This document shows, in pieces, positions 1,417-4,713 of a stretch of 32,227 nucleotides of DNA. Positions within the stretch are counted from its first letter, which is position 1. Each line of letters starts with the position of its first letter. A program made the translations under genes and the position numbers. The notes beneath the pieces are model-generated. The model was not told the DNA's origin. It saw only the letters and a list, made by a program, of their open reading frames with translations, and ran no database searches. The stretch comes from a virus, in the IMG/VR virus record IMGVR_UViG_3300025872_000187, positions 1-32,227 of that record; one strand, given 5' to 3'.

Positions 1417-1707
1417 ATGGCACAACCAGTATCAAAATCTGGTGATTTCTATACCTATACAGACTCAGAGGGTGTCGGGCGACGGGCACCCCTGACGGGC
1501 GTGGCATCGGATAGGGTCACAGCCAACGGGAGTCCTGTTTTAGTATCCGGAACTTTGGCTCGTACAGCAAACGGCACTGTGGTTTTAAGTGCCAATCAGG
1601 GATCAGGATTCACCATTAATGGAAACCCCGTGGACGGATTATTTTCGCAGAATGTCCGAACAGACGGACACGGTGATCTTGGGGGAAGGTATGGAACATC
1701 CAGATGA
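1417..1707 (+). CDS. PAAR-like spike-tip protein candidate (gp5.4-like)
   Basis: 96 residues, about the size of T4 gp5.4 (97), the PAAR-type protein that sharpens the central spike. Supporting features are an MAQPVSKSGD start like PAAR N-termini, and two similar beta hairpins, VTANGSPVLVSG and FTINGNPVDG, matching the ANGxPV pattern repeated in PAAR proteins. A late HGD might contribute to a metal site. The position just before gp25/gp6 matches T4, where gp5.4 precedes gp6. GGAGG at 1402-1406 is its ribosome binding site. The stop overlaps the next gene (ATGA at 1704-1707). The usual cysteine and histidine metal ligands are not clearly present, so this is a fold-level guess. Confidence 0.5.
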   Translation: MAQPVSKSGDFYTYTDSEGVGRRAPLTGVASDRVTANGSPVLVSGTLARTANGTVVLSANQGSGFTINGNPVDGLFSQNVRTDGHGDLGGRYGTSR

Positions 1708-2354
1708 TAGACATCAAGTATTGGCTAGAAACAGGGATCGCTATCAGCACGACCATTGGCGGGCTTGTCCTCGGTTGGATAGGTGTGAAAAAGGTTATAG
1801 TCGAAGTCCGCAAACGGCTGGCAAAGGGGTCCATCCATGACCACCAGGAAGCCATATCCGCAGACAAAAAAATACACGAATACTTGGCTGACCTGCGCCA
1901 CGAAACGGATTCCTGTCGGACCAAACTTTTCCAATACCATAACGGGTCCAGTTTTGCGAACGGGGTAAGCATGAAAAAGATGTCCATGACCCACGAATCG
2001 TGCCACCCCGGGATGCAGCCCACTTTCCGTGGGAATACCGATCAGGTGCTGTCCCTGTTCGTGGACATGCTGGAACTCTTGGAAAAGGACAACGCAACGC
2101 CCGTAGTGGTAAACTCCCTGAAAGATTCGTATTTCAAGTCGTATCTACAGTCCAACCATGTCCTCATGGTGTCGGCAATGCCCGTGCGAAACACGGACGG
2201 AATACAGACAGGGTGTATACTGTGCGAATGGTGCGGCTGGGCTTTTGCGGACAAGGTTGAAGAAGAACACCTACGGAACAAGTTTGCGGAAGTCCGAAAC
2301 AGCATACAGTATGTGCTGAGTACCGAAACCAAAGGTCGGAGAAAGAGCAAATGA
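1704..2354 (+). CDS. Membrane-anchored protein with probable GAF-like domain
   Basis: 216 residues. Residues about 10-28 form one hydrophobic segment (AISTTIGGLVLGWIGV) followed by basic residues, suggesting a short outer N-terminus and a cytoplasmic body. A helical stretch (about 45-70) leads into FQYHNGSSFANGVSMKKMS, which resembles the F-x-(Y/F)-HNG...SM(Q/K)K motif of a widespread phage family that I associate with GAF-like domains. Near the C-terminus, GIQTGCILCEW followed by a long helix fits the last strand and helix of a GAF fold, with two close cysteines. It overlaps both neighbours by ATGA and has no clear ribosome binding site, so it should be translated with the spike gene and gp25. 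Function unknown: ligand sensor, inner-membrane contact protein and infection-timing factor are all possible. Confidence 0.6.
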   Translation: MIDIKYWLETGIAISTTIGGLVLGWIGVKKVIVEVRKRLAKGSIHDHQEAISADKKIHEYLADLRHETDSCRTKLFQYHNGSSFANGVSMKKMSMTHESCHPGMQPTFRGNTDQVLSLFVDMLELLEKDNATPVVVNSLKDSYFKSYLQSNHVLMVSAMPVRNTDGIQTGCILCEWCGWAFADKVEEEHLRNKFAEVRNSIQYVLSTETKGRRKSK

Positions 2355-2743
2355 CTGAACCTGTCTATCGTGATCTGGACCTGTCCTTCCGAAAGCATCC
2401 GCTTACGGGAGACATTTCTACATTTATAGACGAGGATGCGATCAAGTCGGCTATACGAAATCTGGTTCGCATAGCCCGATACGAAAAACCGTTTCAACCC
2501 AATCTGTTTTCTCCTGTATACGAACTGCTTTTTGAGCCTATCAGCGAGCCGTCTTCAAGCATATTATCAGATAAACTATTATATCTTATCAAAACTCTAG
2601 AACCAAGGATACAGAAGGTTCAGGTAAAAGCCGTTCCCGTTTTTGATGAGAATAGATATGATGTAACCATAAATTATGAGATCAAGAAGATACAATCACA
2701 GCAAACACTGGAACTCACCATTCCTGTAGAGAGGCTACGCTGA
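2351..2743 (+). CDS. gp25: Baseplate wedge subunit gp25 (TssE/gp25 family)
   Basis: 130 residues, against 132 in T4. gp25 clamps the two gp6 chains and gp7 in the inner wedge and is thought to help start sheath polymerisation. The early motif SFRKHPLTGDIS, the basic helix IKSAIRNLV, and the hallmark EPR (residues 84-86, in KTLEPRIQKVQV) are all visible. EPR is the conserved core of gp25 and type VI TssE proteins. The alternating strands after it match the family. The start overlaps the preceding gene (ATGA at 2351-2354), and the stop overlaps the gp6 start (TGATG at 2741-2745). The adjacency with gp6 is as in other exo-T4 phages. Confidence 0.95.
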   Translation: MTEPVYRDLDLSFRKHPLTGDISTFIDEDAIKSAIRNLVRIARYEKPFQPNLFSPVYELLFEPISEPSSSILSDKLLYLIKTLEPRIQKVQVKAVPVFDENRYDVTINYEIKKIQSQQTLELTIPVERLR

Positions 2744-4713
2744 TGGCTAACGAAAATTTCATAGATGTAACAGAACTAGATTTTGATGCTGTAAAGCAAA
2801 ATTTTAAGAACTATCTGAAATCCAAAGGCAAGTTCAATGGTTATGACTTTGAAGGTTCGTCCATGAATATTCTTTTTGATATTCTTGCCTACAATACACA
2901 TTATGCGGCATTCTATGCGAGCATGGTGGGAAACGAGATGTTCATTGATAGTGCCACCAAACGGGACTCCGTGGTTTCCCATGCCAAATTACTGAACTAT
3001 CTTCCCCGTTCACGGACTAGCGCCAAAGCAAACATTCGGATAGACGGCATAACAAGAACAGTCAGGAGAGGCGAGTTTCTAACCGGTTCTTATACAAATG
3101 AAAACAATGAAACAATAAACAAAGTATTCACATTTCTTGAAGACTATATTCCTTCTTCCGCTCCTGTTAATGCCATAGAATCTGCTCAAATATACGAAGG
3201 AGTCCTTCTTACGCAGACGTATGTGTATGACGCACGGGCACGGGAGAACAAGTTTCTTGTCCCTCCAGATGCCGACATTTCCACAATACGGGTTTCTGTA
3301 CGACAGTCCGCATCAGCAGCCGAAGACGATACTCAGGTGTGGTACAGAGCCTCTGACTTTTCTGTTCTTGGTCCCAATGAGCGGGTCTTTTTTGTTCAAG
3401 GGGCATATGACGGACAATATGAAGTGTATTTCGGAGATGGTGTGATCGGAGAAGCCCTTTCTAACGGAAACATCATCTACATCGAATACCTACAGTCATC
3501 AGGAGAAGACGGAAACTTTTTCTCGTCATTTAGCGGAAACGGTTTTGGTTCCTCAATTAGTACAACTACTTCTGCCATAGGTGGCAGCAACGAAGAAGAT
3601 GTTACGGACATCAGGAAAAATGCTCCAAAGGCTTTCTCTGCCCAAAATCGTGCGGTCACGGCGGCAGATTACGAAAGCATGGTCCTACAACTGTATCCAC
3701 AAACAGAAACAGTAAAGGCTTGGGGTGGAGAGGACAACGATCCGCCACAATACGGAAAAGTGTTCATATCGGTCAAGCCCAATGGTGGTCTTGTGCTTCC
3801 CGCATCAGACAAAGAAGTTATCTTGTCTGCTATGAAAACAAAATCTGTAGCGGGCATTATTCCTGAAGTGATAGATCCTGAATACCTGTATGTGGTTTTG
3901 AATGTAAATACCACTTACAATCCAGTAAAAACAAATCTGTCCAGAAACGAACTGGCTTCCATACAAAAGGACACAATTCTATCATACTTTGACAGTTCTC
4001 TGGAAAAATTTGATGCTCCTCTGTATCTTTCCAAGTTGAATAAAATCTTGGACGATCTAGACGACTCCATACTTGGAACACGAATAAAGACAACAGTGGA
4101 ACAGCGGATCACTCCAAGCACAGTATACCCAACTCTCATAACCTTGTATTTCCAGAATCAGATTTTCCATCCGTACGATGGACACCTAAACTCGATACGG
4201 AGCACTTCTTTTGGCTATCGTGACTCTGTAGGAGCAACACGAGTATGCTATATTCGTGACGACGGATACGGAAAATTGTCTATTGTATCTGGCTCCGGTT
4301 CTGCCGAAGAAACCATTGTGGATGAAGCGGGAACTGTGGATTACCTTTCTGGATCTGTGGTTCTGTACGCATTCAAGCCTGAAAATTACGGAGACTATCC
4401 CCATATCAAAATACGGATTCAACCAGCATCCGACGATGTATTTGTTTCCAAAAACAAGATAATCACCACAGCATCTGAAAATATTCTGACCAAAGCCGTG
4501 ACTAAAGAAGAAACAGAGCGGTCGATAAGGTCTGGTATTCGTGATTTTAATGATATAATGGTTGGAACTGGAGTATTCCCTGAAGGTCCAGTTGTGGTGT
4601 CTGTGGGAACTACTCTTCGTAGCCCGTCTCCGTTCTTCGCACCAAACCTGCCAAGAACCCCACCACTTCCTAATTCCATACCCATAACACTACCTACTAT
4701 AGGCAGGCTGTAA
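2743..4713 (+). CDS. gp6: Baseplate wedge subunit gp6 (baseplate J-like)
   Basis: 656 residues, against 660 in T4. gp6 dimers link the six wedges into the inner ring of the baseplate. The N-terminal segment has the gp6 pattern of a helix ending in LKSKGKFNGYDFEGSS followed by MNILFDILAYNTHYAAFY. The baseplate-J-like core includes ITAADYES-type sequence (here TAADYESMVLQLYP, about residues 306-319), followed closely by WGGEDNDPPQYGKVFISVKP, highly conserved in gp6. The C-terminal part (about 470-656) carries strands absent from short J proteins and ends in a proline-rich tail. It begins by overlapping the gp25 stop, which fits production of wedge parts in fixed proportion. Confidence 0.95.
   Translation: MANENFIDVTELDFDAVKQNFKNYLKSKGKFNGYDFEGSSMNILFDILAYNTHYAAFYASMVGNEMFIDSATKRDSVVSHAKLLNYLPRSRTSAKANIRIDGITRTVRRGEFLTGSYTNENNETINKVFTFLEDYIPSSAPVNAIESAQIYEGVLLTQTYVYDARARENKFLVPPDADISTIRVSVRQSASAAEDDTQVWYRASDFSVLGPNERVFFVQGAYDGQYEVYFGDGVIGEALSNGNIIYIEYLQSSGEDGNFFSSFSGNGFGSSISTTTSAIGGSNEEDVTDIRKNAPKAFSAQNRAVTAADYESMVLQLYPQTETVKAWGGEDNDPPQYGKVFISVKPNGGLVLPASDKEVILSAMKTKSVAGIIPEVIDPEYLYVVLNVNTTYNPVKTNLSRNELASIQKDTILSYFDSSLEKFDAPLYLSKLNKILDDLDDSILGTRIKTTVEQRITPSTVYPTLITLYFQNQIFHPYDGHLNSIRSTSFGYRDSVGATRVCYIRDDGYGKLSIVSGSGSAEETIVDEAGTVDYLSGSVVLYAFKPENYGDYPHIKIRIQPASDDVFVSKNKIITTASENILTKAVTKEETERSIRSGIRDFNDIMVGTGVFPEGPVVVSVGTTLRSPSPFFAPNLPRTPPLPNSIPITLPTIGRL

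Follow-up and report, generated by a model that had tools for sequence, protein, structure and literature searches.

A membrane-tethered GAF-like protein encoded beside gp25 in T4-like phages is a candidate regulator of lysis timing

Why a T4-like phage should encode a membrane-anchored protein between its spike-tip gene and the baseplate gene for gp25 is the question raised by a short open reading frame (ORF) in an uncultured viral genome. The window, by which we mean the whole stretch of 32,227 nucleotides that was analyzed, is a 32 kb fragment of a viral contig, and it also holds T4-like genes for the baseplate wedge, tail fibre, neck, tail sheath stabiliser and both terminase subunits. We examined the predicted structure of the protein, the family to which it belongs and the genes that accompany the family in other phages, and we weighed a role in lysis against roles in the tail, in sensing and in hole formation.

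The gene, its predicted fold and its family

The ORF (1704..2354, + strand; ATG at 1704, TGA ending at 2354) encodes 216 amino acids. It is preceded by a small gene for a PAAR-like spike-tip protein (1417..1707, + strand; 96 aa) and followed by the genes for the baseplate wedge protein gp25 (2351..2743, + strand; Pfam GPW_gp25, E = 1.6e-7; phrog_261, E = 6e-34) and a gp6-like wedge protein (2743..4713, + strand; phrog_219, E = 1.5e-150). A sequence-only reading of this locus had proposed that the ORF shares ATGA overlaps with both neighbors, and the coordinates bear this out, as the upstream ORF ends at 1707 and gp25 begins at 2351. Judging from its many conserved relatives, the ORF is a real gene. 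The label ‘PAAR-like’ for ORF 1417..1707 derives from its size, its position and the typical PAAR-type genes found at the same place in relatives; a Pfam search of this ORF gave no PAAR match, and its own family (cluster c11) occupies the same position in six clusters of the close group. Further upstream, the ORF at 45–1151 has an extreme glycine content that includes long Gly runs; it has only weak matches to tail PHROGs and probably encodes a protein of the tail-fibre tip type.

The protein is predicted to begin with a Gly-rich membrane helix (about residues 10–30; 1731..1793, + strand; Kyte-Doolittle window 1.58 at residue 10), which runs on into a helical linker (about residues 31–68; 1794..1907, + strand) and then a GAF-like domain (about residues 69–206; 1908..2321, + strand). 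In the AlphaFold2 model, built from a 70-row alignment of relatives (pLDDT 87.6, pTM 0.73), the membrane segment and linker form a single helix over residues 2–68, and the alpha/beta domain that follows has strands at 72–78, 92–100, 155–162 and 168–176 in addition to its helices. All 70 rows were required for a confident model, since six close relatives only gave a pLDDT of 40. When the model was compared with the PDB by Foldseek, it matched phytochrome-type GAF domains at E values of 1e-7 to 1e-6 (the GAF domain of the cyanobacteriochrome RcaE with a query TM of 0.61 and rmsd of 3.3) and the periplasmic domain of T4 holin T (6psk_T; E = 1.2e-6, target TM 0.73), with the chains of 6px4 close behind. 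The viral models that matched included a number of phage proteins labeled ‘GAF domain-containing’ and three from T4-like phages that are annotated as holins, namely ‘Class III holin’ of Proteus phage Stubb, ‘Holin’ of phiP4-3 and ‘T holin lysis mediator’ of PS2. Thus, the GAF-like fold suggested earlier from the sequence is upheld by structure prediction, which returned a GAF-like and not an unrelated fold.

Profile searches add to this picture. The Pfam GAF profile did not match the window protein itself, but weakly matched 14 of 70 family members (best E = 2.2e-5), and a tblastn search with the homologue from Nonlabens phage P12024S found GAF-GGDEF proteins, a separate line of sequence support for the GAF fold. 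Three of the records concerned, deposited as ‘Bacteriophage sp.’ (L026, L027 and L028; MT835688.1, MT837964.1 and MT838977.1), carry genes for GAF-GGDEF proteins as well as bacterial genes for pyrimidine synthesis or other genes of cellular origin. These records are apparently bacterial, GAF-GGDEF genes included, and were counted as evidence on the fold and not as phage members. Sequence searches of the PDB found nothing with narrow profiles and, with a broad profile, only weak matches to GAF histidine kinases. The first Pfam matches obtained, to CCDC90-like and MFD_D3, were weak and were dismissed as chance.

A family signature, R72..HNG..(F)..G87..S94..E98..G103, spans 1917..2012 (+ strand) and is conserved across both subfamilies: in 133 aligned sequences, R72, H79, N80, G87, S94, E98 and G103 are kept at 98–100%. 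The loop near residues 81–90 is predicted with a pLDDT of only about 54, yet the HN, G, S, E and G in and around it are conserved at these same levels. A conserved flexible loop of this kind is typical of a ligand site and, in the model, hints at one here. The motif CILCEWC (2214..2234, + strand), in which the sequence-only reading saw two close cysteines, does contain cysteines, but there are three of them (C171, C174 and C177), all invariant among close relatives alone; across the wide family, the W-C part is all that is common.

The window protein matches PHROG 30125 (E = 9.5e-8) and PHROG 14038 (E = 3.5e-7), both without an assigned function, has no match among the Pfam and PHROG baseplate profiles, and belongs to a large phage family (PHROG 30125/14038/38864), here called GAF-TM. 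Its close relatives, at 51–65% identity, come from six other viral contigs, and scans of viral contigs, among which the family is common in those of aquatic origin, added about 160 further loci. Named relatives are LMM01 gp021, P12024S gp12 and members in Leptospira phage LE1, Microcystis phage Mel-JY01, Bacteroides phage BS-TP1 (already annotated ‘GAF domain-containing’) and the crAss-like phage cr127_1, so that siphophages, crAss-like phages and T4-like phages are all represented. By hhalign, homology between the P12024S-like group and that of the window is clear (99.8%, E = 2e-30), and one N-terminal membrane segment is retained in every full-length phage homologue that we looked at. A match in S-CRM01 (E = 0.5) was dropped because no profile match was obtained at its locus (L011). 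Scans of bacterial genomes found no cellular relative with a narrow profile, and a wider profile picked up one distant contig of an Oscillospiraceae MAG but no close cellular relative. Our literature search on the family found no paper, and phage proteins of this family have so far been left unannotated or labeled ‘GAF domain-containing’.

Linkage to gp25 and to peptidoglycan hydrolases

We counted gene neighborhoods after clustering loci at 90% identity. In the window’s clade, gp25 lies directly downstream in 28 clusters and, as confirmed by reading the DNA of L113, in the 29th (29/29); gp6 follows gp25 in all of these except L060, whose contig ends there. The upstream neighbor, in contrast, changes among at least three different families. 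The 29 gp25-linked clusters are monophyletic (support 0.996), their mean identities are 34.8% for the GAF-TM protein, 37.6% for gp25 and 41.0% for gp6, and the divergence of the GAF-TM gene tracks that of gp25 (r = 0.89) and of gp6 (r = 0.90). About half of the gp25-linked clusters have an unannotated family of 244–480 aa between the PAAR-type and GAF-TM genes (for example, L020 6068–6808, L058 4914–5750 and L105 4343–5785), and phage Melnitz-3 (L118 4538–4951) has a gene annotated as nuclease-like between its PAAR-type gene and gp25, which suggests that this slot takes different inserted genes in T4-like phages.

Such strict linkage could mean that the protein is a baseplate-linked factor of this T4-like clade, acting in tail assembly or DNA ejection, for instance as a membrane-bound assembly helper for the hub or wedge, or as a tail-tip component that the phage delivers to the host membrane. 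We consider this somewhat unlikely. The constancy of gp25 despite the changing upstream neighbor, the monophyly of the linked members, their near-gp25 pace of divergence and the translational overlaps with both neighbors all argue for it, as does GAP32_305, a Cronobacter phage GAP32 protein with one TM segment that the holin T profile matches (E = 0.0013) and that is annotated ‘virion structural protein’. Yet none of 25 further gp25 loci in viral contigs has the gene, and inspection of six cultured T4-like phages did not show it next to gp25 in any of them, which means that baseplates do not generally include the protein. Moreover, a membrane helix would be unusual in a virion tail protein, and homologues are also found in phages with different kinds of tail and away from baseplate genes. 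The linkage to gp25 is therefore strict but limited to one clade, and the relatives outside it are not tied to baseplates. Because the family is found in sipho-, crAss-like and T4-like phages, a function shared by its members cannot require a T4 baseplate. The idea that the protein might meet the incoming spike fares poorly on the same grounds, as homologues are present in phages without a T4 baseplate (P12024S and cr127_1), often beside endolysin genes.

Those endolysin genes recur in several lineages. In P12024S, the GAF-TM gene is followed by an M15 peptidase (+1) and then by a PHROG holin; an M23 peptidase lies at +1 in Leptospira phage LE1, an endolysin with PG-binding and Amidase_2 domains at +1 in contig L039, an Amidase_3 endolysin at +3 in BS-TP1 and an endolysin-type protein at −3 in L087. 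Within the P12024S-like siphophage group, a hydrolase (lysozyme, amidase or M15 peptidase) occurs at +1 to +4 in about 15 of 22 clusters. Pfam or PHROG matches confirm 14 clusters: a GH24 lysozyme in L122; Amidase_2 or amidase PHROGs in L121, L130, L133, L141 and L142; and M15 or endolysin PHROGs in L126, L132, L137, L148, L151, L164, L165 and L200. For L129, and more weakly L144, the call was made by sequence clustering with confirmed enzymes. The class of enzyme at the slot varies while the GAF-TM gene persists, and unrelated enzymes in the same slot point to a functional link with lysis and not to the descent of one block.

The window’s clade itself has no endolysin at the locus, and searches of its longer contigs, many of them fragments, with three enzyme families found no endolysin either. 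The one amidase found in each of L042 and L054 is some 12–13 kb from the gene, and in several large T4-like contigs the gene sits among unrelated genes. In two loci of a large T4-like group (L023 1389–4243 and L037 4369–4964), the GAF-TM gene sits amid genes with a common N-terminal tag, MKxIxxFExFIxE, that resembles capsid-targeting leaders. A separate holin-type gene lies 3′ of the endolysin in P12024S and some relatives. For MaMV-DC, ORF70 has been proposed as the holin (PMC12843271); we rejected ORF70 as a member of the GAF-TM family, the member in this phage being ORF21R.

Membrane topology and likeness to T4 holin T

We next asked on which side of the membrane the soluble domain lies. 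Lys and Arg are enriched C-terminal to the membrane helix in 27/27 gp25-linked clusters and in 25/25 other clusters of this layout (52/52), with a mean net charge in the gp25 group of −1.85 before the helix and +3.89 after it, and the helix of this layout is 40% Gly, Ala, Ser or Thr (GAST). By the positive-inside rule, this excess predicts a cytoplasmic domain. The soluble domain of the window protein thus probably faces the cytoplasm, opposite to the N-in/C-out arrangement of holin T, as judged from the charge pattern. In the P12024S-like group, by contrast, the helix is strongly hydrophobic (15% GAST, compared with 19% in holin T) and is preceded, as in holin T, by a basic stretch about 16 residues long. 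The positive-inside rule is nearly neutral on real T holins and so cannot settle the topology of the P12024S-like group, whereas the window’s group is strongly skewed.

A cytoplasmic GAF domain could also serve as a small-molecule sensor or sink with no part in lysis, reading or soaking up, for example, a host metabolite or a defence signal nucleotide at the membrane. The GAF fold with its family-invariant flexible loop, which looks like a ligand site, the charge pattern across the whole layout, the many non-lysis contexts in large T4-like phages and the match of a homologue to GAF-GGDEF signalling proteins are all consistent with this. The protein has no output domain, however, and neither the repeated endolysin linkage in other lineages nor the placement in a structural operon in the window’s clade would be expected, so that we regard such a role as quite unlikely.

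At the sequence level, the link to T4 holin T is marginal. The phrog_860 profile, which represents holin T, did not match the window protein, and hhalign of the family against holin T scored 27.0 (P = 0.0026, probability 11.6%), compared with at most 22.8 in 40 shuffles and 12.2 in a reversed control, a result that is suggestive at most. When the P12024S-like group by itself was compared with T holins, the profile scores were no better than those of shuffles. The likeness between the GAF-TM family and holin T is thus a fold-level resemblance. Is the window protein nonetheless a true class III holin, a functional replacement of T4 T that forms holes itself? Its fold, size and layout resemble those of holin T, phrog_860 was found in 0 of 28 searched records that carry the family (many of which are fragments), and the N-terminal segment of the P12024S-like group is basic, as in holin T. 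On the other hand, T4 T requires a cytoplasmic amphipathic helix for hole formation (PMC12162936), and the roughly nine residues N-terminal to the helix in the window protein leave no room for one; its predicted topology is the reverse of that of T; and in some relatives a holin-type gene is present in addition. Hole formation by the protein itself is therefore improbable. The globular domain of T4 holin T is regulatory and not pore-forming (PMC12162936), and it is this domain that the antiholin RI binds (PMC11413866). With a regulatory-type domain but no amphipathic helix, the window protein fits a regulator of lysis better than a pore.

A candidate role in lysis timing, compared with known systems

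We tentatively favor, at a little less than even confidence, the reading that the window protein is a late-expressed, membrane-tethered regulator of lysis timing of the GAF type, comparable to a holin or antiholin. This reading builds on the gene itself, its membrane segment and predicted fold, its likeness both to GAF domains and to holin T, and the endolysin genes linked to its relatives. One Gly-rich helix would anchor the protein in the cytoplasmic membrane, and a continuous helix would join this anchor to the GAF-like domain, probably facing the cytoplasm. The conserved HNG...S..E loop may bind a ligand or partner, and this binding would hold back or trigger membrane opening, by analogy with T4 holin T, in which the soluble domain is the regulated part. 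In the window’s clade, the gene has become fixed beside gp25, probably because the protein is made in the late tail operon; the T4 t gene, similarly, lies directly after the tail-fibre genes 37 and 38.

Several observations stand against a lysis regulator: the clade’s locus has no endolysin, P12024S has a separate holin-type gene and MaMV-DC a different proposed holin, the sequence link to holin T is marginal and the HNG loop is absent from T. Strict co-inheritance with gp25 also fits a tail-linked role. The sequence-only reading is supported in part: the data agree with a late-infection location in the membrane of the host, and neither the likeness to holin T nor the link to lysis figured in it. 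The likeness to the holin T fold, the recurrence of the endolysin linkage, the apparent split of the family into two membrane layouts and the fixed position beside gp25 in one clade are new here.

If the family does control lysis, many uncultured phages would gain a recognizable gene for lysis timing, the soluble domain of T4 holin T would be placed in the fold class of GAF sensors, and it would become testable whether phages time lysis by sensing the state of the cell from inside. A broader version of this idea, which we think unlikely, is that one module exists in two topological versions, one being the phage lysis proteins that resemble holin T and the other a widespread phage family of GAF sensors tethered to the membrane and facing the cytoplasm; the lysis clock of some phages would then read a cytoplasmic small molecule and not a periplasmic superinfection signal.

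Among the closest known systems are the families PHROG 30125, 14038 and 38864 (LMM01 gp021, LE1 and P12024S gp12), which share profile homology, the TM and GAF-like layout and an HNG-type signature with the window protein, although the fixed position beside gp25 is found in the window’s clade alone. GAF domains (PF01590), including those of phytochromes and cyanobacteriochromes, have the same fold, but the window protein has no output domain and no recognized ligand residues, and carries a phage-specific signature loop. GAP32_305 (L234 1681–2325, − strand), a 214 aa protein of a jumbo phage, resembles the window protein in its one N-terminal TM segment and differs in its holin T-like basic N-terminus, its lack of the HNG signature and its annotation as a structural protein. 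T4 holin T (phrog_860; 6psk, 6px4) is alike in architecture: at 218 aa, compared with 216 aa, it has the same single N-terminal TM segment, long helix and GAF-like soluble domain. The window protein nevertheless falls outside phrog_860, lacks the cytoplasmic amphipathic helix and reverses the charge pattern, while holin T lacks the HNG loop that is conserved throughout the GAF-TM family.
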